Source of the DNA: Gammaproteobacteria bacterium
GTDB taxonomy: Bacteria; Pseudomonadota; Gammaproteobacteria; Eutrophobiales; Eutrophobiaceae
Assembly: GCA_021773235.1 (NCBI GenBank)
Contig: JAJFKL010000011.1
Span: 1 to 64,000 of the forward strand
Length of the DNA: 64,000 nucleotides
Direction of reading: 5' to 3'
Below, piece by piece: positions 30,851-46,117 of this stretch. Within the stretch, counting starts at the first letter, position 1. Each line of letters starts with the position of its first letter. The notes beneath the pieces are model-generated. The model was given only the letters and a program-made list of their open reading frames with translations, did no database searches and was not told the origin of the DNA. A program made the translations under genes and the position numbers.

Positions 30851-32611
30851 TTATTTATTAGAATCTTTTAATAAAACATCGATTTCAGCGGAAAGAAACT
30901 GGTCTTGTATTTTAGATATTCTCCTGGCCTTTTTATGGCTCAGATCCGCTTGTTGCACTATTCTGCCCTTAGCTTTTCTTAGCTCTTTATTTAGTGGTGA
31001 AGATTCATTTTTTACTTGTTCCGCCAACCATTCTTTCAGCTCATCATTTAACACGTGGTTTTGTGCAGGTTGTCGTTGTATATCCTCTCCTGATTTTTCT
31101 ACTTTTTTTATTTTAATGTATTCAGCCTCTGCCGCTTGTTTCATATTCCTTATTTTTTCAATCTCATTTGCCTTCCATGAATAAAATGCCTGCATCTTTT
31201 TTTCTTCATCAATAAACCTTTTATCTATCTCTGCCTGAAAATGTGCCACTGTCTCTTCATGTTTCTTTTGTTGTATTTCTACAACCTTGTAAATAGATTC
31301 TCGCTCTTGTTCTATATCGTCATGTATTTTTTTTGCTTGTTGAAAAAGTTTATTTGTATTTTGCGTTTGCAAATTTATTTTTTCTCTTTGTTCCTTAAAA
31401 TTCCCCCGTATACTTTCAAGCTCTTCACGAAGTCCTTTCAATTCGTCACGAATAATATTGTCATCTGAAATATCATTTTTTTTGAAGGGTAAAATATCTG
31501 CAGAACCTGAATCATCTGTTTTAATTATCTCTGTCTGATCTTTATCCATATGCCCAATATGAGCCTTTAAACCACTATTCAGGTGATAAACATCATAACC
31601 ATGCTGCGCAAGGATAAAAGCAGCTATAGCGCAACGAGACCCGGTATCACAACAGGTAATATATTGCTTTGTTCTGTCCAACTTGCCAACCTGCAAACGA
31701 AGTATGTTTAAAGGTATATTGATGCTGCCATCTATAGAATAATCCCGGAATTCATCCGGATATCGAACATCCAGCCATATGGCTCCTTTTTGTTCTATCG
31801 ATTGTGCTGTTTCATAATCTACTTTTTGTAGTATTGAATATAAAATGAGTTCTAAAAAATCATCCTTACTCAAACGCATTAATCGTCCATCAGTGAGCAT
31901 AGTGACGGAAGCATTGCGCTTTGTTTTAGCAATAATTGCTTCTTCCCCAAAAGCGTCCCCTTCTCTTATTTGAGCAAGATTAATGTCTTGAGCGTTTGGC
32001 GTTGGTTTCCTGCTAATTTGACAGCGACCAAATTGAATAATGTAATAATAATCACCATTGTCTCCTTGATTAACAATTACATCTCCTTTACTGACATCGA
32101 TTGATTCTATTTTAGAGAATATCTTTTGAATATTTTCAACTGAAATATTGGTATAGAGTGGAGACTGCAAAATTCTTGTCATCCAATCTTCATCATCGTC
32201 ATTACCTATGTCATTAACTTCCAAGCCAGAGTTACAACTGACTATGTCGGCATCATCACCAATAAGTAATGAATCCAATAATGTTTTGTCAACACAAAGA
32301 ATTAAAGAATCATCTTCTGCTATTGCAGTAAATTGTCGAGGTTGAAACTGCGCTAATGGATAACGTGCGCCATCTGTCTCCGAATAGATACGAAAATTTG
32401 TATTATCTGTTGAAACTAAATTCAACTCACCTTTTAGCAGATAAAATGCATAGTCGTCATTATCACCTTCACTAAAAATGATATTGCCTTTAGAAACTGC
32501 TTTAACGCTTGAACTTGAAACAATTAACTCGATGTTATCTTCAGACAGATTGCTTATCGGAATAAGTGTTTTCAAGATGCTGGCTAATTCAATATTGGAC
32601 TGTAATGCCAT
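30851..32611 (-). CDS. cNMP-cNMP-rhodanese-coiled-coil protein (shorter paralogue)
   Basis: This 586-residue protein has no signal peptide. The first cNMP-like domain (about 15-120) is degenerate, lacking the FGE..R cassette. The second (about 145-265) keeps FGEEAIIAKTKRNASV and should bind a ligand. A rhodanese-like domain follows (about 270-355) with the loop CCDTGSRC that could carry persulfide. The C-terminal 200 residues are charged coiled coil (about 390-500 and beyond). The whole layout matches the 812-residue protein at 35193, mainly differing in a shorter coiled coil. It is divergent from the 99-residue gene, with a CRP-type palindrome in the shared control region. Confidence 0.87.
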   Translation of the reverse strand: MALQSNIELASILKTLIPISNLSEDNIELIVSSSSVKAVSKGNIIFSEGDNDDYAFYLLKGELNLVSTDNTNFRIYSETDGARYPLAQFQPRQFTAIAEDDSLILCVDKTLLDSLLIGDDADIVSCNSGLEVNDIGNDDDEDWMTRILQSPLYTNISVENIQKIFSKIESIDVSKGDVIVNQGDNGDYYYIIQFGRCQISRKPTPNAQDINLAQIREGDAFGEEAIIAKTKRNASVTMLTDGRLMRLSKDDFLELILYSILQKVDYETAQSIEQKGAIWLDVRYPDEFRDYSIDGSINIPLNILRLQVGKLDRTKQYITCCDTGSRCAIAAFILAQHGYDVYHLNSGLKAHIGHMDKDQTEIIKTDDSGSADILPFKKNDISDDNIIRDELKGLREELESIRGNFKEQREKINLQTQNTNKLFQQAKKIHDDIEQERESIYKVVEIQQKKHEETVAHFQAEIDKRFIDEEKKMQAFYSWKANEIEKIRNMKQAAEAEYIKIKKVEKSGEDIQRQPAQNHVLNDELKEWLAEQVKNESSPLNKELRKAKGRIVQQADLSHKKARRISKIQDQFLSAEIDVLLKDSNK

Positions 32612-32650
32612 ATCTACTCATGTGTTCCGTGATTTAACTTTATAATAATA

Positions 32651-32680
32651 ATGAATAACTACGCATCGATAGTTATTCAT
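32651..32680. promoter_or_regulatory. 11-bp inverted repeat upstream of the cNMP-rhodanese gene
   Basis: ATGAATAACTA and TAGTTATTCAT form a perfect 11-bp inverted repeat around CGCATCGA. It begins 40 bases upstream of the minus-strand gene start at 32611, so it sits in or next to that promoter or leader. It may be an operator or an RNA hairpin. No T-run follows on either strand. Confidence 0.4.
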
Positions 32681-32729
32681 TACATTTAAGCCATTAATCC
32701 ATATTCTTGACACCTCAAATACCTGTTTT

Positions 32730-32745
32730 TGTGAACATGCTCACA
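32730..32745. promoter_or_regulatory. CRP/FNR-type palindrome TGTGA-N6-TCACA
   Basis: The site reads TGTGAACATGCTCACA, matching the CRP consensus half-sites perfectly with the right six-base spacing. A TTGACA lies 17 bases upstream (32707-32712). It lies in the 366-base divergent region between two genes, one of which encodes cNMP-binding domains. Regulation by CRP or a CRP-family protein is inferred. Confidence 0.55.
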
Positions 32746-32751
32746 TGATTA

Positions 32752-32763
32752 AGCGTGCACGCT
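32752..32763. promoter_or_regulatory. 12-base perfect palindrome AGCGTGCACGCT
   Basis: This GC-rich palindrome stands out in an AT-rich spacer and begins six bases after the CRP-type site. It may be a separate operator or part of a composite site. No known regulator is assigned. The remainder of the spacer (32764-32926) is AT-rich with no gene seen. Confidence 0.3.
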
Positions 32764-32926
32764 CATAAATAAATATTTTTTTAGATGTTTGACGTATGAG
32801 TTCTTAAATATTGTCGCGCTCGAACGACGTATTTGCCTGTTTTATAACAAAAAGCAGGTAAAATAAAATCTCCAATTTTCATTTATCCATTTGTTTTTAT
32901 TAAGTTTATTTTCATATGTGTTCTAT

Positions 32927-32942
32927 TGGCACAGCGATTGCG
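32927..32942 (+). promoter_or_regulatory. Near-consensus sigma54 promoter
   Basis: TGGCACAGCGATTGCG has GG at 32928-32929 and GC at 32940-32941 with ten bases between, matching TGGCAC-N5-TTGC exactly in the conserved positions. Transcription would start near 32953, about 25 bases before the GTG of the 99-residue gene and just ahead of its GAGGG ribosome site. This is the best sigma54 promoter seen in the window. Confidence 0.65.
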
Positions 32943-32977
32943 CTACATAAGATTATTATGATTACGAGGGTAAACAA

Positions 32978-33277
32978 GTGTCAGTAAACGAAATACTAAA
33001 GATCGACGGGGAAGAAAAAGAATTACTCTGGGAGATTTTTCACTACGAAAAGATGCTCGATGATAACGAGGAAATGCTGCTCAATGATTTAAATTACTAT
33101 GAGGAAAGAATTCGCTCTATTGGCAGTACAAAAACACCTATAGAAATAGGTTTGCTTACAATTTATATGAAACATATTAAAAATATAAGAACACTACTAT
33201 TGAACCTTCAAAACAACAGAAATGACAAATTGAAAAAACAAATTCAGGACTTATCTATTAAATCACCGGATACTTGA
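32978..33277 (+). CDS. Small acidic helical protein of unknown function
   Basis: This 99-residue protein starts with GTG after a well-spaced GAGGG (32965-32969). It is predicted to be wholly helical and rich in Glu, Asp, Leu and Lys, with heptad-like stretches (EKELLWEIFHYEKMLDDNEE, KNIRTLLLNLQ), so it may pair with a coiled-coil partner. There is no signal peptide, Cys or known domain. It is driven by the sigma54-type promoter just upstream and lies between the two cNMP-rhodanese coiled-coil genes. Its 3' end overlaps the convergent 417-residue gene by 15 bases. Function unknown. Confidence 0.7.
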   Translation: MSVNEILKIDGEEKELLWEIFHYEKMLDDNEEMLLNDLNYYEERIRSIGSTKTPIEIGLLTIYMKHIKNIRTLLLNLQNNRNDKLKKQIQDLSIKSPDT

Positions 33278-34516
33278 TGATCTTAGGAAGTCAGCTTGAT
33301 GCTTAAAAGCTAGAGCTTCCATCTGTTGCCCTGCTAGAGAGGATAAACGTCCAAGGCTCACTACTTCCCAACCCTTATACCCTGAGGTCATTGCATGTTT
33401 TGCCGCTTGTGTATATTTTTTTTCATTTTCTTCAGACCAGATTAATAAATCTGCATATTCAAAAAATACGATCCTTCGTGATTCAGTCAGAACAGCTGCC
33501 TGACCTTTAAAGTTATAGAATGCAGAAAATTTTTCAGTTTCCCTATAGTAATTAAACAACATTTTACTTAGCTGCTCAAAAATCAGTGCAACCACCTCGT
33601 CGTCTGCAGACAAAACCACTTCTATATATGAATCGAGTCTAGACACTGTTTCAAGCCCTGAAAGATAAGTAGTAATTGTCGTTTTATTCGTCGGCGATAA
33701 GACCATATGCTCTATAAAAGCCTTAATCAATTTTTTGTTAATGCCCAACTTTAAAAGCAGATCAACATTATATTCATTCAATTCAGAGAGAGTCTTATTC
33801 TTAAGGACATACCTTATCTTTGTATCCATCTCATTCTCTTTTTGAGCAGTTGCAAAACCACTACTTAAGCCCACTCCGGCTGAGACTTTACCAGAGGCTC
33901 GTGCATTAGCGACAGTATTCAAAAAGGATTGTACTTTGTAATTACTGGAATACATGTCCAGGCCCAGCTGAAATGCCGCATTACGTTTATGTCTGGCTAC
34001 CGTTGGGTCGTTGGGCTCTCTGAGGGAATAACGATTTAATCGATCTCGAACAAAGGGATCTTCACCTTCAAGTGTCGCATCCAGATTATTGCCCAATTGC
34101 CCAGCCAGATTTGTCGCTGTTTTAATTGGTGACGTCAGAAAATCAACTGCTGAATCGCCAGAAAGACTTAATTGACTGCGTAATTCATCTGAGAACTCTT
34201 CGTTCTGATTTTTAAATTGCTCTACTGCTTGAGATAAAATATTAATTTCATTAAGTCGTTTTTTCAGGACAGCTAAAGATTTTAGTTCAAGCTCACCAAT
34301 GTCTGATTCAACCTGGAACTGATAGAGTCCATTATTGAACTCTATAGAATTAACCCGGTGATAAGTGGAAGATAGTTCACCAGATGACAAAATAGTATTA
34401 CTATTAATAACGGGGTTAGATTCGTTATCTCCTGCGATAACGAATAGAGGTACAAATAACAATAATGCTAATACGCTAGGTTTTAAAAAACAGGGTATCT
34501 CATTCAAAGTCATCAT
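33263..34516 (-). CDS. Exported protein of unknown function
   Basis: I do not recognise this 417-residue protein. It has a signal peptide (MMTLNEIPC start, hydrophobic LALLLFVPLFVIA, cut near AGDNES), so it is periplasmic or outer-membrane associated. A short charged helical stretch (LELKSLAVLKKRLNEINI) follows, then SPIKTATNLAGQLGNNLDAT, SGKVSAGVGLSSGF and long helical segments (FEQLSKMLFNYYRETEKF). The gene follows the Fae-like gene by 43 bases on the same strand and is probably the last member of a three-gene unit with it and the 812-residue protein. No catalytic motif is evident. Confidence 0.7.
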   Translation of the reverse strand: MMTLNEIPCFLKPSVLALLLFVPLFVIAGDNESNPVINSNTILSSGELSSTYHRVNSIEFNNGLYQFQVESDIGELELKSLAVLKKRLNEINILSQAVEQFKNQNEEFSDELRSQLSLSGDSAVDFLTSPIKTATNLAGQLGNNLDATLEGEDPFVRDRLNRYSLREPNDPTVARHKRNAAFQLGLDMYSSNYKVQSFLNTVANARASGKVSAGVGLSSGFATAQKENEMDTKIRYVLKNKTLSELNEYNVDLLLKLGINKKLIKAFIEHMVLSPTNKTTITTYLSGLETVSRLDSYIEVVLSADDEVVALIFEQLSKMLFNYYRETEKFSAFYNFKGQAAVLTESRRIVFFEYADLLIWSEENEKKYTQAAKHAMTSGYKGWEVVSLGRLSSLAGQQMEALAFKHQADFLRSSSIR

Positions 34517-34559
34517 ATATTATTCTCGCAAACAACAACGAACCTAACCGATAAACACA

Positions 34560-35108
34560 TTAGATCTTGCCATCTAATCCCATTTGATAGTATTTGTGTA
34601 CTATCTGCTCCTGATTTTCCAACAACCAATCTATGTCTGGCTCATTATTCATAGCCTTATGAATTGCCATAGCAGTAGCCTTACGATGAATATCAAATAA
34701 TATTTTATGATCCAGATCATCTGCAGTGGCCACTAGTGGATTTAACCAAACAGAAACAATGATGCCTAGATCATTCGCCTTTTCTTTTGGAATATCACCA
34801 TTTCTAACAGCATCAAGGACTCCATTTGCCGTCGCACCCTGAACCGTACCCATCAGTATATTTGTATAACGTTCCTTATTAACTGTTACTTTACTAACCA
34901 TTAATGTTGCAGGTCGAACCATAGTATCGGTATTCATTATAGCCAGTACTTTTGTATGTCCTTTAACTTGTGACGCCATTTGGTTAGCGAAAGCAGTACC
35001 AAAAGGTCCATCAAGTTCGCCAATAACAACTTCCGGCTCAGCTGCAGTACCCGGAGGGCCACCGGCAACCAATGCTTCGCCAACGCGCATGACAATACGT
35101 TCACTCAT
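34560..35108 (-). CDS. Formaldehyde-activating enzyme (Fae) homologue lacking the catalytic His
   Basis: True Fae condenses formaldehyde with tetrahydromethanopterin. This 182-residue protein matches the family: RVGEALVAGG at the start, LDGPFGTAFANQMA, RPATLMVSKVTV, TVQGATANGVLDAV and IVSVWLNPLV. In Methylobacterium Fae the sequence after GEALV contains AHIDLIIG, whose His is the catalytic base. Here the matching stretch is AEPEVVIG (23-30), with no His. It therefore resembles the Fae-like paralogues rather than the housekeeping enzyme, and may bind a pterin or carbonyl ligand without the known reaction. An AAAGGAG site precedes the ATG. It sits between the 812-residue cNMP-rhodanese gene and the exported protein. 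No H4MPT pathway genes are in the window. Confidence 0.85.
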   Translation of the reverse strand: MSERIVMRVGEALVAGGPPGTAAEPEVVIGELDGPFGTAFANQMASQVKGHTKVLAIMNTDTMVRPATLMVSKVTVNKERYTNILMGTVQGATANGVLDAVRNGDIPKEKANDLGIIVSVWLNPLVATADDLDHKILFDIHRKATAMAIHKAMNNEPDIDWLLENQEQIVHKYYQMGLDGKI

Positions 35109-35192
35109 ATTATTAAACTCCTTTGTTTAGATAGATAATTATTAGGGAAATATTTTCTGAAGAATTACTGACAATTAAAGATGAAGTACAGG

Positions 35193-37631
35193 TTACTTTT
35201 CACCTCCCAGCTGATTGGAAATATCATCAAGTAAACTTGAGTTCGCTTGGGCAGCCTTCTTCTTGGCATCCGCCGCCTTGAGTTTAATGCGTTTCATCAT
35301 GTCCGAATGCATTTGTACCTGGGTCACCGACTCAGCCTCTTCTTCCTGCGTTTCTTCGAAATCTTGTAAATCGCCTTCGACCTGAGCAAGAAAAGCCTCT
35401 TCTTGCTGTTTCTTCTTGGTCAAATCCGCTTCATTCACCTGCTTCGCAGATTCTGTTAATTTTTCTCTATGCGCCGCGTCCTCAATCTCACGCTCAGCCT
35501 CGATGGCCTTCTCCTGAGCTGCCTTGATTTCGACTTCCAGTTTTTCGCGCTGTTCTCTGGAACTGGTCGACTCCATTTGTTTTTCTTTCAATCTACCTGC
35601 TTCGGCAAGTGCTTCTTGCTTGACCTGTGCCGCCTCGAGTTTGGCTGCCTGAATCTGCTTCATTGCTTCCTGTATTTTTTGAGATTCTTCTTCCAGTTTT
35701 TGACGCTCAGCTTTTAACTTGGCCTCTTCTTCAGCTCGCGTCTTGTCGTGTGACGACTTATATTCCTGGATCATTTTTTCGGCTTCTTCTTTAGCTGCCA
35801 ATTTTGCGGCCTCTGCGGCAGCTTTTCCTTTTTGTAATTCTTCAAATTCTTTCGAATTACGTTCGTATTGTTCAGCTAGTTTTTTGCGTTCTTCTTCTAT
35901 ATTAGCCTTAGCTTCTGCCTGCAATTGTTTTTCACGTTCTTCATCTTGTAATTTTTTCTTTTCAGCTTCTTCTTCCAAAAGTTTCTTTGAAGCCTCAAGC
36001 TCTTCCAGTTTCTTTCTGGATGCATCAGCTTCCTGTTTGATTCGTGTCGCTTCTTCTATTTGTTTTCTTGCAGCTTCAGCCTGCTGCTCCAATTTCTCTC
36101 GTTCCTTGCGTAGCGTTTCTTCTGCTGCTTCTTTTGCTTTTTGGATTTGTTCCATATCCTTAGCATTTTTGTTATAGATCTCTTCGAGCTTTTTCTTTTC
36201 CTGCTCCATTTGCTTATCAGACTCTGCTTGCAGTTTTTTGAGTCTCGCTTCTTCCTGATCCGCTTTTTTTGTTGCTTCTGCTTGTGCTAGCTTCTTTTCT
36301 TTCTCGAGCTTTAGTCTTTCTTCCTCTAGTTTTTTCTGGTTCGCTTCATGCTCTTTCACCTTTTCAGCATCAGAATCATCTTTTGCTTGTTCAGCCTTAG
36401 CCATTCTTATTTGTGTTGTTTCCAACTCTGCATTCAACATTTCAACACGAACTACCGCATCGACTTTGTTATCGTTTTGTTTGCTAGGGTCTACAGCAAC
36501 TTTTTTCTCAGGTTCAGGTGCCTTAGGTACGATTGTTTGTACACCAACTGCTTCAGGATTATTTACCAAACCACCGTCTAGATAAGAAACATCGAAACCT
36601 CGTTCAGCTAACAAAAAAGAACCCGTTGAACTTCGACCACCGGTGTCACAGTAAAGAATATAGATCATCGAGGAATCAAGTTTGTCGGATTGCAGTCGCA
36701 AGGAATTTAACGGGATATTGAGACTATCTTTGATCGATGACTCCCCATGCTCGTTAGGAAATCGCACATCTAACCATTTCGCGCTACCTTCATTAACCAG
36801 AGCATCTGCTTCATCAAATGTTAGTGATTGTAATGTTGGTTTTTTGACCAGCTCGACGAAGGTATCTTTTGCCAATTTCATCAAGATACCATCCGTTATC
36901 ATGGTAATGGTGGCATTACGTGTAGATTCCGAAATCAAGGCCTCTTCGCCAAAACTATCACCCGTTTTTAATTCAGCCAATTTGACATCATTACTCTTGG
37001 GAGTGGGCTTTCTGGAAACAGCGCAACGTCCTTCAGAAACAATGTAATAATGGTCACCCGGATCACCTTGTCTGATGACGACATCACCAGCGCTGTACTC
37101 GACCTCTTCCAGCAAGGCAAATAACTGATGGATATTCGCCATGGGTATTTTTGAGAACAGCTCTGATTGCAGCATCTGCGTCATCCAGTCTGTATCATCA
37201 TCGACGCCATCGACTACATCGACTTCCATATCTGCACCCGTACTGCTTCTTAGAGTAGGGTCAGCAGTCGTCTCTTGCGCCAACAGCATGAGCTGATCGA
37301 GGTTATTACGCTCAAGCAATAGTATCTTGAGTGGTGTCTTAGCCTTTGCGGAAAATTGTCTTGGTTGCAATTGCGCTAGAGCATATTTTGCTCGGTCACT
37401 GCCACTTTGAATTACGCTATCAAGCTGTTTATTTGCATGGAGTTCAATTTCACCATCCAAAAGATAATAAGAGTAATCGTCTTTATCCCCCTGCTTAAAG
37501 ATAAAGCGTGATTTTTTGATCTCCATGATCTTGGCTTTCTCCAACAATCTTGCCTGAAGATTCGGAGGTAACTCATTGATCGGTATTAGTTCTCTTATTT
37601 GCTTATGCAGTTGTTCGTTGGCTTCTGACAT
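35193..37631 (-). CDS. cNMP-cNMP-rhodanese-long coiled-coil protein (longer paralogue)
   Basis: This 812-residue protein lacks a signal peptide. Domain order: a degenerate cNMP fold (about 15-120, no intact phosphate cassette), a second cNMP domain (about 150-265) with FGEEALISESTRNATI, a rhodanese-like domain (about 275-360) with loop YCDTGGRS and a putative active Cys, then roughly 400 residues of Lys/Glu/Ala-rich coiled coil to the C-terminus. Such a layout suggests a sensor head on a filament-like or spacer tail. It is the first gene of a unit with the Fae-like protein (84 bases on) and the exported protein. A close paralogue lies at 30851. Function unknown; domain calls are good. Confidence 0.88.
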   Translation of the reverse strand: MSEANEQLHKQIRELIPINELPPNLQARLLEKAKIMEIKKSRFIFKQGDKDDYSYYLLDGEIELHANKQLDSVIQSGSDRAKYALAQLQPRQFSAKAKTPLKILLLERNNLDQLMLLAQETTADPTLRSSTGADMEVDVVDGVDDDTDWMTQMLQSELFSKIPMANIHQLFALLEEVEYSAGDVVIRQGDPGDHYYIVSEGRCAVSRKPTPKSNDVKLAELKTGDSFGEEALISESTRNATITMITDGILMKLAKDTFVELVKKPTLQSLTFDEADALVNEGSAKWLDVRFPNEHGESSIKDSLNIPLNSLRLQSDKLDSSMIYILYCDTGGRSSTGSFLLAERGFDVSYLDGGLVNNPEAVGVQTIVPKAPEPEKKVAVDPSKQNDNKVDAVVRVEMLNAELETTQIRMAKAEQAKDDSDAEKVKEHEANQKKLEEERLKLEKEKKLAQAEATKKADQEEARLKKLQAESDKQMEQEKKKLEEIYNKNAKDMEQIQKAKEAAEETLRKEREKLEQQAEAARKQIEEATRIKQEADASRKKLEELEASKKLLEEEAEKKKLQDEEREKQLQAEAKANIEEERKKLAEQYERNSKEFEELQKGKAAAEAAKLAAKEEAEKMIQEYKSSHDKTRAEEEAKLKAERQKLEEESQKIQEAMKQIQAAKLEAAQVKQEALAEAGRLKEKQMESTSSREQREKLEVEIKAAQEKAIEAEREIEDAAHREKLTESAKQVNEADLTKKKQQEEAFLAQVEGDLQDFEETQEEEAESVTQVQMHSDMMKRIKLKAADAKKKAAQANSSLLDDISNQLGGEK

Positions 37632-37844: not shown

Positions 37845-38516
37845 ATGATTTTGAATGAGTTTCTAAATATTGAAAATGCACTAAATCTGGACTATCGGAT
37901 ATTATGCTGCTTGTTTGTACTCTTGACTCTAAGCGTATTATTTATCGCACTGGGAATTAAACAGTTTTTCCGTAGAAAAATTATCACTGCAAGCATCCAA
38001 AGTTTATCTGGCCTATCTCTATTCCTCGCCGGAGCGTTATTAATTTCATTTGCTGCAAACTTGTATAGCTATGATCGCCTAACCTATGAGCAAGACATTG
38101 CCAAACTGACATTCAGTCGACTGGATAGGCAGCAATTTCGCGCAGAAATAAGCTATCAAAATCAGAATAAAGTTGATAATTATTTAATTAATGGTGATGA
38201 ATGGCAATTAGATGCCCGTGTTATTAAGTGGCATGGTTGGGCGCAATTATTAGGACTTAATGCCCAATACCGGCTAGAACGTTTAAGTGGTCGATATTCT
38301 GATATTGAGGAAGAGCAGCTAAAGCCCCGAACGATTTACTCACTGAAATCAGGAGATGAGATCGATTACTGGAAGTTAATAAATAATTATAAAAAATGGC
38401 TGCCCTGGATCGATGCGCATTATGGTAGTGCTACATACCTACCTATGAAAGACCAAACCACATACATCGTATCTCTTACACAATCAGGGTTGGTAGCTAG
38501 AACAACTCAAGAATAA
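37845..38516 (+). CDS. Two-helix membrane protein of unknown function
   Basis: This 223-residue protein has two N-terminal membrane helices (about 18-38 and 50-72, the latter with LSGLSLFLAGALLISFAANL) and a C-terminal soluble domain of about 150 residues. The soluble part contains NGDEWQLDARVIKWHGWAQ, LERLSGRYSDIEEEQ and ATYLPM, a pattern I recall from proteins often mislabelled cation/multidrug efflux pump in gammaproteobacteria. There is no transporter fold here. It is divergent from the 812-residue gene across 213 bases and precedes gcvT by 159 bases. Function unknown. Confidence 0.75.
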   Translation: MILNEFLNIENALNLDYRILCCLFVLLTLSVLFIALGIKQFFRRKIITASIQSLSGLSLFLAGALLISFAANLYSYDRLTYEQDIAKLTFSRLDRQQFRAEISYQNQNKVDNYLINGDEWQLDARVIKWHGWAQLLGLNAQYRLERLSGRYSDIEEEQLKPRTIYSLKSGDEIDYWKLINNYKKWLPWIDAHYGSATYLPMKDQTTYIVSLTQSGLVARTTQE

Positions 38517-43322: not shown

Positions 43323-45407
43323 TTAGTCAGCTGGAAAAGCAACTGTTATGCACACGCCTTGCCTATTTTCCAAATTCATCGCCGATATGCTACCTGCATG
43401 AAATTCTGCAATTAGGCGCGCAACGAAAAGCCCTAGCCCAAGGTGTGGGCCTGTGTCCGAACGTTCGGATCGGATAGAGATCATTGAGTTAAATAGATCA
43501 TCAAGCAACTCTTCCGGTAAGCCGGGGCCAATATTAATAACTTGCAACTCAACTAAATCTGTATTGTTTATTAAGTTTACTGTTATCTCCTTACCTGGTT
43601 GAGAAAACTCAACGGCATTACCCACTAGCTTATCCAACATCTGGAAAAACAAATCTTGATTGATTGAGTAATTGGTTGTCGCTTCAGGTAAATTTAGCTT
43701 GAATAATTGGTTTGGGTATGCGGTTTCATAACCCTCAATACATTTCGATAAAAATTTATTTAGATTAGTAGTTTGTTTATCCGCCTCTTGCAAAGCTTGT
43801 TCTAATCGTGATGCCTCACTCAAGCGTGTTAACAATGCCTGTAAACGTTGTAAGCCTGTATCAGCAGCTTGAAGAGCAACTTTCCTGCCTTCTTCATCCT
43901 GTTCATGTTGCAATCTATCTAGTGATGATTTGACTATTGCCATGGGGGTGCGCAGCTCATGTGACAAACGACTAGCCATGCCCTCAAGGTAACTATGATA
44001 TTGATGTAAGCGATCAAGCATATTATTAAAACTTCTGGATAACTCGCCAACTTCATCGCTGGCGTTACTGACAGAAATATTACCGGTAACTTTTCCATTT
44101 TCATCAATCGCTTCAGTTGTCTCACGGTTTAGTTTTATCAGGCGCGAAGACAAACGACTAGCAAATAATAGAAGTAGAAAAACAATAACAATAAATATCA
44201 GCAGGGTTTTATTGAAAAGACCAGCTAATACCTGGCGTTGCATTATTTGTATATTATTTGTGGTCTCTTCGACCACAACTGCACCAACCACCTTGTTATC
44301 AAACCATATAGGCGTTGCTGCGGATATTATCACTGCTTTTCCATCGGGAGATGACCGCCAACGCGTTTCTGTATTGCCAGACAAGGCTTGTTTCACTTCA
44401 TTCCCCTGTAGTCGGGATGCTCCGGCCAAGTCATCATCAAACTGATCATAGGCTGGCGGCAATAGGAGCGTGTAAACAATATTAAATGCATTGTCAGGAA
44501 AAACACGCTTCAAGCTACCATCACTCGCTAATACCTGGGCAGACTTATCTAACACCCAAATTCGTCGTCCTTCACTACGTCCTTGAGTGTAAATAATATT
44601 TTCAATATTTTTTGATGAACTTATTATTTTTCCTGGCCCTACATAATCATCACTATCAAAGGTGCTAATAGTATTAGTTCCACTATGTCCATTCGCATCA
44701 TCAACGTCTTCGAATGTAAAACCAAGGTGGCCACCCAAAAGGTATGACGGTATTTTAATCTCAATGTTATAACCGTCATTCACGGCTTGCCAAACAGCCG
44801 ATGTGTTCGTCAGATTTTTTTGTGTGCGTATTTCTACACCGTATTCATCATAAGATTCTTCATATCGAAAAGGACGAATTAAACCTGGCCCACTTGGTGC
44901 GAGGTAATCTTTATGTAAGCGCTGATATTTATCGCGATAAACGACGACTATATGATCACCATTAATATGCTCAGCATTATCCAGAGTAGAGTAAACTAGC
45001 TTGTCATCTTTGACCTGAATTAACACATAAAAGTAATCATCATCTTTACTAATAATTAATTTAAAGTTATCAGCATCATCTACTGATTCAGATCGGTATG
45101 TTTCCGACCAGTCAATATATGACAGCCAATCATCCGTATAACCATCCAGATGTACCGGATTATTTAATTGATGCACATATAAGCTATTAGTAGTTTCATT
45201 AAAACTTGATTCAAATAATTTTGGTTTATCATTTAGAGCTCCCGCAACTGCGTAGGTGGAATCAACTAATGAAGCTTCCAATGTTTCTCTCAAATAAGTT
45301 TCCATCTGTCGTAAATAATCAAATCCTATATAGGGAATGATCAACACGGCAATTGACAGCAACATCAATTTGCTGCGCAGAGAAAAACTAATCTGTGTTT
45401 GAGACAT
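43323..45407 (-). CDS. pdsS: Dedicated sortase system histidine kinase
   Basis: This 694-residue membrane sensor kinase has an N-terminal helix (about 15-25), a large periplasmic region with a CBM9/DOMON-like part (DGYTDDWLSYIDWSETYRS), a second membrane helix (about 395-415), HAMP, a dimerisation H-box (SHELRTPMAIVKS) and an ATPase domain with DKLVGNAVEFSQPG and GLGLFVARLI. The layout and position beside the response regulator, PdsO, sortase target and sortase fit the TIGR03785 family. It forms a minus-strand pair with pdsR, which starts upstream. The signal is unknown; the carbohydrate-binding-like domain suggests a surface or glycan cue. Confidence 0.9.
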   Translation of the reverse strand: MSQTQISFSLRSKLMLLSIAVLIIPYIGFDYLRQMETYLRETLEASLVDSTYAVAGALNDKPKLFESSFNETTNSLYVHQLNNPVHLDGYTDDWLSYIDWSETYRSESVDDADNFKLIISKDDDYFYVLIQVKDDKLVYSTLDNAEHINGDHIVVVYRDKYQRLHKDYLAPSGPGLIRPFRYEESYDEYGVEIRTQKNLTNTSAVWQAVNDGYNIEIKIPSYLLGGHLGFTFEDVDDANGHSGTNTISTFDSDDYVGPGKIISSSKNIENIIYTQGRSEGRRIWVLDKSAQVLASDGSLKRVFPDNAFNIVYTLLLPPAYDQFDDDLAGASRLQGNEVKQALSGNTETRWRSSPDGKAVIISAATPIWFDNKVVGAVVVEETTNNIQIMQRQVLAGLFNKTLLIFIVIVFLLLLFASRLSSRLIKLNRETTEAIDENGKVTGNISVSNASDEVGELSRSFNNMLDRLHQYHSYLEGMASRLSHELRTPMAIVKSSLDRLQHEQDEEGRKVALQAADTGLQRLQALLTRLSEASRLEQALQEADKQTTNLNKFLSKCIEGYETAYPNQLFKLNLPEATTNYSINQDLFFQMLDKLVGNAVEFSQPGKEITVNLINNTDLVELQVINIGPGLPEELLDDLFNSMISIRSERSDTGPHLGLGLFVARLIAEFHAGSISAMNLENRQGVCITVAFPAD

Positions 45408-45430
45408 TTATTTTTATAAAAAATTACGAT

Positions 45431-46117
45431 TTATGTTTTCCATCGATAACCTACACCATATACCGTTTCTATATGGTCAAAGTCATCATCAAGCTCTTTA
45501 AATTTTCTACGAATACGTTTTATATGCGAAGTGATCGTACCATCATCAACAAAGATGTTTGAATCTTGCATTAACTGCTCTCTATTTTTTACATGGCCTG
45601 CTCTTTTCGCAAGGGAGTGAACCATCCAGAATTCAGTTAGGCTCAAATCAACTGCAACGCCTTTCCATTCTATTTGAAAGCGCTGCGCATCTATCAAAAG
45701 AGCCCCATGTTTAATCTGATCAATTTCAACTGTTGTTTGCAGTGCTTGTATGCGTCTAAATAAAGCCGCTATACGGGCAAGTATATGCGGCATACTGGTA
45801 TCTTTACTCAGATAATCGTCTGCTCCAAGACGTAAACCTGAAATCGTATCTAAATCAGTATCTCTCGCTGTCAAAAAAATAATCGGTATGGTATTTGATA
45901 GTGCTCGAATCTCCCGACAGAGGTCAAAGCCGGCTTCCACATCATCACCAAGACCAACGTCAAGAATAGCCAAGTCAGGTAATTGTTTGTTGATCCTGTC
46001 TATAGCCACTTGCTTGTTGTTACAGGTAACAACCTCATAACCATGTTGTCGAATAGCAATAGCATAGTTCTCGCAAAGAATGGGTTCATCTTCAACCAGT
46101 ATTATCTGCTTAGGCAT
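45431..46117 (-). CDS. pdsR: Dedicated sortase system response regulator
   Basis: This 228-residue OmpR-type regulator has a receiver domain with acidic pocket (VEDEP), phospho-acceptor Asp53 in LAILDVGLGDD, Thr in FLTARD and Lys in YLSKD, then a winged-helix DNA-binding domain ending in TVYGVGYRWKT. It is the partner of the kinase encoded 23 bases downstream and is divergent from pdsO across a 200-base region, the natural target for its binding. The TIGR03787 assignment rests on neighbourhood and general fit. Confidence 0.92.
   Translation of the reverse strand: MPKQIILVEDEPILCENYAIAIRQHGYEVVTCNNKQVAIDRINKQLPDLAILDVGLGDDVEAGFDLCREIRALSNTIPIIFLTARDTDLDTISGLRLGADDYLSKDTSMPHILARIAALFRRIQALQTTVEIDQIKHGALLIDAQRFQIEWKGVAVDLSLTEFWMVHSLAKRAGHVKNREQLMQDSNIFVDDGTITSHIKRIRRKFKELDDDFDHIETVYGVGYRWKT

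Follow-up and report, generated by a model that had tools for sequence, protein, structure and literature searches.

Which signal is read by two proteins that share one head architecture, and which of the genes around them belong to the pair? The question is raised by positions 30851 to 37631 of a gammaproteobacterial DNA stretch of 64,000 nucleotides (contig JAJFKL010000011.1, assembly GCA_021773235.1; hereafter the window), for which an original prediction had proposed a sensing filament or scaffold, arranged around a Fae homolog, that reads a nucleotide together with a sulfur or aldehyde signal. The five genes lie where that prediction had placed them, and Pfam confirms heads composed of two cyclic nucleotide monophosphate (cNMP) binding domains and a rhodanese domain in both paralogs, LongCC and ShortCC, with Fae in between. 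The locus, carried by uncultured marine bacteria, is real, conserved and apparently undescribed, and a pair linked to cyclic AMP (cAMP) is a better account of it than sensing centered on Fae. The relevant features are the following.

35193..37631, minus strand: LongCC, 812 aa; by Pfam two cNMP_binding stretches and one Rhodanese, followed by a helical tail of ~440 aa rich in E, K, Q, A and R, with a conserved C-terminal tip
34560..35108, minus strand: Fae paralog of a Fae3-like class (class B); Pfam Fae, E 1.2e-58; 84 bp after LongCC
33263..34516, minus strand: EXP, an exported protein (signal peptide judged by eye), 43 bp after fae
32978..33277, plus strand: p99, a small helical protein of 99 aa with a GTG start; member of the core module
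30851..32611, minus strand: ShortCC, 586 aa; by Pfam two cNMP_binding stretches and one Rhodanese, the same head as LongCC with a shorter tail
32730..32745, no strand assigned: predicted CRP-cAMP site TGTGA-N6-TCACA, perfect consensus, 118 bp ahead of the ShortCC start codon
32813..32828, plus strand: palindrome GTCG-N8-CGAC, presumed sigma-54 activator site
32926..32941, plus strand: predicted sigma-54 -24/-12 promoter TTGGCAC-N5-TTGC, 36 bp ahead of p99

Predicted regulatory sites and the adenylate cyclase link

ShortCC and p99 are divergent and have a common intergenic region of 366 bp. The three regulatory elements were picked from the window sequence and then from an alignment of relatives, in searches that were not planned beforehand. 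The match at 32730-32745 is the only perfect one to the CRP pattern in the window, where with up to one mismatch the pattern occurs 7 times as against 2.5 expected, a number reached in 2 of 100 shuffles. Upstream regions of relatives were scanned from the starts of our own open reading frame calls, some of which lie too far upstream (e.g., L197 and L072). A perfect predicted CRP site precedes ShortCC in all eight genomes of family f1 that harbor this gene, compared with 3 of 1253 background upstream regions. No CRP site was found ahead of LongCC (0/25, up to one mismatch) or ahead of the short heads of 350 aa (0/7), and the LongCC-fae-EXP unit stands apart, with no CRP site of its own. At the place occupied by the site in the window, none within two mismatches is present in G006, G011, G017 and G026, all of which are devoid of ShortCC there (for G026, the 283 bp before p99 only); in G006, which also lacks the class I adenylate cyclase, the site is degenerate. 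In genomes beyond f1, namely G296, G184, G191, G264, G143 and G044, a CRP site with 0-1 mismatches lies ahead of one of the two genes of a pair or neighboring duo, and in G297 such a site precedes one of two separate head copies. The CRP gene is present in G000.

The sigma-54 pattern TGGC[AG][CT]-N5-TTGC is found near the p99 start in 11 of the 13 genomes with p99, and with one mismatch in the other two, G011 and G019. In G004, G017 and G026 the element is located at or just before the annotated p99 start, which is probably placed too far upstream. As the pattern alone, with one mismatch allowed, is no commoner in the window than expected by chance (6 versus 4.4), the case for sigma-54 rests on its conservation. 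The combination of palindrome and sigma-54 element within 60-140 bp occurs 9 times in 1.63 Mb of chosen neighborhoods, every time before p99; G191 has both at a wider spacing, and the palindrome is missing in G011 and G019. The palindrome was also considered as a QseF site and rejected, since it does not fit TGT-N12-ACA, the QseF site given in the accessible part of PMC6075780. We consider the regulatory evidence strong: control of ShortCC transcription by cAMP is very probable, and control of p99 by sigma-54 is equally so.

Among the 53 f1 genomes, a class I adenylate cyclase is encoded in all eight with ShortCC as opposed to 4 of the 45 others (Fisher 5.6e-7, not corrected for kinship). The ShortCC genomes are kin, six of the eight belonging to one genus; within that genus the cyclase is present in 6/6 genomes with ShortCC versus 1/6 without. 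With respect to LongCC, it is present in 12/32 genomes with the gene and in 0/21 lacking it. On a tree of 42 genomes, independent pairs show the same direction or no difference for all co-occurrences and are too few for significance. The CRP sites and the cyclase co-occurrence, together with an intact second cNMP domain, support the nucleotide signal that had been proposed.

We give about an even chance to the reading that LongCC and ShortCC form an asymmetric pair of cytoplasmic scaffold proteins responding to cAMP. Its parts stand differently: judged by sequence, cAMP is somewhat favored as the ligand of the heads, and the scaffold function is put forward tentatively. In this scheme, cAMP made by the class I adenylate cyclase would induce ShortCC through CRP-cAMP and would also bind to the second cNMP domain in both proteins of the pair. 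ShortCC would then co-assemble with LongCC via the helical tails, and p99 would serve as a short helical partner produced under sigma-54 control, so that cAMP and another global signal would together determine the make-up of the scaffold. The LongCC operon of methylotrophic relatives would have taken in a Fae3-type protein, which may dock on LongCC.

Several observations weigh against this scheme. The kinship-corrected link to the cyclase is not significant (~3 independent pairs, 2.6 agreeing and 0 disagreeing) and depends on the definition of ShortCC. Four genomes (G018, G026, G032 and G058; L261, L262, L263 and L264) encode a third tail-bearing type of head protein, 420-476 aa as called, which matches ShortCC over the head only (37-40% identity) and has a tail unlike that of ShortCC. 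No p99 was found in the stretches fetched for it and no perfect CRP site precedes it, with a one-mismatch site in G018. These heads were left out of the ShortCC count, and their genomes are without class I cyclase; once they are included, the co-occurrence becomes 8/12 versus 4/41. Moreover, with CRP kept in 41 of the 53 f1 genomes, the regulator as such does not follow the distribution of ShortCC; G191, G296 and G184 carry CRP-like sites but no class I cyclase; and for the neighboring duo in G171 no CRP site turned up even with two mismatches allowed. p99 is retained without ShortCC in four f1 genomes (G006, G011, G017 and G026), and a cytoplasmic scaffold offers no evident place for EXP.

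Spread of the gene set and architecture of the pair

In line with the original prediction, the locus is conserved beyond the genome of the window, with the same gene order in relatives. The usual order in the family is RR-HK-dn223-LongCC-Fae-EXP-p99-ShortCC-PHP-YajQ-DUF3301-ApbE, where RR and HK denote a response regulator and a histidine kinase, dn223 a 223-aa membrane protein, and PHP, YajQ and ApbE were named by eye; the window differs by the insertion of gcvTHP and a GGDEF/Tsx-like block. LongCC is present in 32 of the 53 f1 genomes. ShortCC orthologs were assigned in eight, namely in G000, G001, G003, G004, G005, G009 and G016 by at least 50% identity and in G019 by position. Presence was tabulated by hand, with incomplete genomes among those counted (in G034 and G013, for example, a contig end truncates LongCC); L003-L008, from Thiotrichaceae and other uncultured gammaproteobacterial or proteobacterial assemblies, were counted once with G006, G009, G004, G001, G005 and G003.

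In G191, which belongs to another family, YajQ, a head protein of 735 aa, a p99 homolog (E 1.3e-21) and a LongCC of 791 aa are encoded side by side, with no Fae or EXP among these genes. In G016, p99 and ShortCC stand together on a contig other than that of LongCC, p99-ShortCC having moved as a unit along with all three regulatory sites. Because the pair and p99 occur without Fae and EXP in G191 and p99 stays with ShortCC in G016, the core is the head pair plus p99, with EXP and Fae as additions. EXP follows LongCC without Fae in G013, G014, G015, G026 and G029. Divergent head pairs with yajQ nearby were observed in G264 and G143.

The original prediction had assigned one degenerate and one intact cNMP domain to each head. 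The intact second domain was confirmed: the phosphate-binding cassette FGE plus Arg is present in 25/25 LongCC heads of f1, and ShortCC keeps FGE in 7/7 and the Arg in 6/7. The description of the first domain had to be refined; it has lost FGE in the LongCC heads and carries a conserved P-R-Q motif of its own. As this motif is kept in 25/25, the domain looks re-purposed rather than decaying. The rhodanese loop retains its Cys, as had been noted, in 25/25 LongCC and 7/7 ShortCC heads, and the Arg of the Cys-X4-Arg loop is found in 25/25 and 6/7, respectively. The best PDB sequence match for LongCC is 5dyk (3.9e-23).

The coiled-coil tails that had been proposed are supported for LongCC and in part for ShortCC. 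In 28-aa windows, the mean of the best heptad a/d hydrophobic fraction is 0.587 for the LongCC tail (shuffled 0.522 +- 0.018) and 0.610 for the ShortCC tail (shuffled 0.517 +- 0.025), with the head as control at 0.577 (shuffled 0.592 +- 0.018). A 3.5-residue periodicity is modest in the LongCC tail (13/500 shuffles equally high) and absent in that of ShortCC (284/500), and the latter is for this reason less clearly a coiled coil. AlphaFold models the LongCC tail (392-809) as long helices at 422-548, 556-687 and 692-809, mostly at a predicted local distance difference test (pLDDT) score of 60-88; the head model is unreliable (mean pLDDT 54.8 and predicted template modeling score 0.27 for LongCC, from a 7-sequence alignment). 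By eye, the C-terminal tip RI.xxAxxAKxxA...LLxxI..QL is kept in most complete long forms.

Head proteins come in tail-less forms of ~350 aa, tailed forms of ~420-950 aa and forms of 1000 to ~2000 aa. The head tree, with its long branches and poorly supported deep nodes, was kept out of orthology claims. A giant head protein of 1465 aa in G050 (L097:9951-14348) bears a C-terminal FGE-sulfatase domain by Pfam, and similar giants of ~1300-1900 aa with the same head occur in G095, G132, G173, G139, G113, G183, G383 and G390. Judged by eye, C-terminal ends like that of L097 are found in eight more of the 13 longest forms, all nine outside f1, and Rieske-like, TerB-like or HU-like genes lie near several of the giants. 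In G000 (contig C14, L109), with equivalents in f1, a tail-less head protein of 352 aa has, by eye, two glnK-amtB-like pairs and a gene resembling aroE as neighbors.

EXP and p99 gave nothing above cut-off in the Pfam and NCBIfam scans. For EXP, there was no PHROG match, the best PDB sequence match reached only E 0.073, and the AlphaFold model has a mean pLDDT of 44.4 from a 7-row alignment.

The Fae paralog and rival explanations

The Fae protein of the window falls within PF08714 (198 bits, cut-off 27) and TIGR03126 (129.8 bits, cut-off 118.05). In f1 we distinguish canonical Fae, usually encoded near mch (class A), the class of the window protein (class B) and a third class (C). The His that is invariant in canonical Fae (position 21 of chain 1y5y_A), which is regarded as catalytic, is present in 33/33 class A proteins and replaced by Glu in 45/46 class B proteins, the remaining row being gapped there; class B is probably not a working Fae enzyme. 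At an identity of at least 65%, class B occurs in 23 of the 369 class genomes sampled, and every one of these encodes at least one further Fae. The window protein is 67.6% identical to an 'aldehyde-activating protein' on plasmid pLVM1 of Methylobacterium sp. DM1, where the class B gene follows genes annotated as glutamine amidotransferase, GlxC, glutamate synthase and glnT, presumably the N-methylglutamate pathway set, and precedes a globin gene. A role of Fae as a methylamine-pathway gene in f1 was rejected; GMAS scores above cut-off in 13/53 genomes and does not track class B.

We infer that class B corresponds to the published Fae3. In the accessible part of PMC5023235, the Methyloversatilis Fae3 is a distant Fae that is almost 10-fold induced on methylamine and whose deletion caused no growth defect. 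The fae3 gene of M. alcaliphilum did not rescue a fae mutant of M. extorquens AM1, according to the accessible part of PMC11748545. With 39% identity to the window protein, a fae gene carried by plasmid pMaq22A_1p is within the class C range (37-47%), and by locus tag the fae2 gene of the strain carrying it is on replicon 1p (accessible part of PMC7356819).

What, then, does Fae contribute? One reading, in essence that of the original prediction, makes it the sensing or catalytic core of a dedicated formaldehyde- or sulfur-sensing filament. In its favor, LongCC and class B are neighbors in 18 of the 19 f1 genomes having both and lie at contig ends in the 19th, and class B is found in 19/32 LongCC genomes versus 6/21 others (p 0.048). 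All 25 class B genomes encode mch or canonical Fae, compared with 19 of the 28 others (p 0.002; neither value is corrected for kinship), and the rhodanese Cys is kept. G000, which is 81% complete, lacks mch, and we read this as incompleteness. On the other hand, 13 of the 32 LongCC genomes are devoid of class B, six f1 genomes have class B without LongCC, the tree-corrected pairs are few and not significant, and G191 combines the pair and p99 without Fae, its class B gene lying on the LongCC contig at a distance of ~39 kb. The co-occurrence survey that had been suggested gave adjacency within f1, yet no heads beside class B in 20 loci read outside f1 (of 21, some cut by contig ends); a head search over these 20 loci returned one distant cNMP match, at the G044 locus. 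We found no support for a signal from sulfur or an aldehyde; the Cys of the rhodanese domain is conserved, no more. Fae as the core is improbable. Alternatively, Fae may be a passenger, an operon neighbor by chance or co-expression without physical link to LongCC. In G008 and G030, where LongCC is absent, it occupies the same place in the chromosome, and class B proteins are strongly conserved where unlinked as well (outside f1, 65-87% identical to the protein of the window), for which reason the higher conservation of Fae (92-99%, LongCC 65-92%) was rejected as evidence of coupling. Adjacency in 18/19 genomes across several genera argues against a passenger, as does G002, where the coiled coil is lost and the remaining 359-aa head still stands beside Fae (L070). 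We regard the passenger as a possibility of some weight, though a minority one. The farther-reaching combination, a two-protein, cAMP-tuned filament or scaffold that is undescribed yet widespread in the class, has its composition determined by CRP-cAMP through ShortCC and by sigma-54 through p99, and in methylotrophs docks a catalytically altered Fae reporting formaldehyde or methylene-tetrahydromethanopterin status, is unlikely, if slightly less so than Fae as the core.

The cAMP-responsive pair also has to be set against another ligand, such as cyclic GMP, a cyclic dinucleotide or a different nucleotide, in which case the CRP sites would only place the gene in a carbon-starvation regulon. 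The residue after the cassette Arg, Ala in PKA and Thr in PKG, is Asn in 25/25 LongCC heads; class III cyclases occur in 43 of the 53 genomes of f1, to which their survey was confined; and yajQ, whose type of product is reported to bind cyclic di-GMP, is a frequent neighbor. Against this, the two features that track ShortCC, the CRP site and class I cyclase, are specific to cAMP in the systems known, and we consider another ligand rather unlikely. Far less probable still is an anti-phage or toxin system. Although the PADLOC PycTIR and TIR-effector models match the cNMP domain (LongCC 1.2e-12) and p99 gives a weak TscT score (0.012 in Pfam, 0.0072 in NCBIfam), these PADLOC matches are restricted to cNMP stretches, the Pfam scan contains no TIR or other effector domain, TscT stays below the cut-offs, PADLOC matches none of the other three proteins, and gene order is kept throughout the family.

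Known systems and neighboring features

No published description of a locus with this head architecture, or of Fae together with cNMP domains, was found in the open-access literature, in agreement with the original prediction that the system is new. The window protein shares the Pfam and TIGR family with Fae, Fae2 and Fae3 of methylotrophs and differs in the replaced His; the accessible part of PMC5023235 does not mention cNMP-rhodanese proteins with Fae3. Tandem cNMP domains are reminiscent of the regulatory subunits of PKA and PKG, which also supply the best PDB sequence matches of LongCC (5dyk), but LongCC contains no kinase domain in the Pfam scan, adds the rhodanese domain and the long tail, and lacks the FGE cassette in its first domain. 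With CRP/FNR regulators the pair shares the cNMP domain and the link to cAMP, and in the same scan neither protein has a DNA-binding domain. The giant FGE-sulfatase proteins have the same cNMP-cNMP-rhodanese head and differ by the C-terminal domain and by their occurrence outside f1. In contrast to Pycsar- and CBASS-type effectors, the heads show no fused effector domain in the PADLOC and Pfam scans.

LongCC matches at 1e-30 were obtained in 166 of the 369 sampled genomes of the class, the listed matches covering the head; hence a common kind of cyclic-nucleotide protein without DNA-binding domain appears to have no described function. For experiments in a cultured relative, a direct handle exists in the conserved CRP and sigma-54 sites, and the Fae3-type link is a lead for a family in which deletion left growth unimpaired, according to the accessible parts of PMC5023235 and PMC11748545.

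LongCC, fae and EXP, all on the minus strand, look like one operon, since the gaps between them are short (84 and 43 bp) and the terminator scan listed none on the minus strand in either gap. Two further features adjoin LongCC in many relatives.

37845..38516, plus strand: 223-aa membrane protein (dn223), a divergent neighbor that is probably outside the system
43323..46117, minus strand: histidine kinase and OmpR-type response regulator, in the window split off by the inserted gcvTHP block

In the whole window, the sole Rfam match at gathering thresholds is a cut tmRNA, 3' part (RF00023), at the window edge (1-275), and the phage search returned four short domain matches and nothing more.

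Elsewhere, class B lies beside a globin or globin-like gene on pLVM1, an alphaproteobacterial plasmid (L206), and at L173, L174 and L176 in a distant family of the class; in G038, G211 and G413 it adjoins a globin-like gene (by eye). In genus g17 (L100, L123, L124 and L125), SnoaL-like and MsrA-like genes lie beside it instead, with an ABC-F gene in 3/4 (by eye). Finally, the window contains at 32649-32682, just ahead of the ShortCC start, an inverted repeat, TAATGAATAACTA-N8-TAGTTATTCATTA, which is less perfect in relatives.

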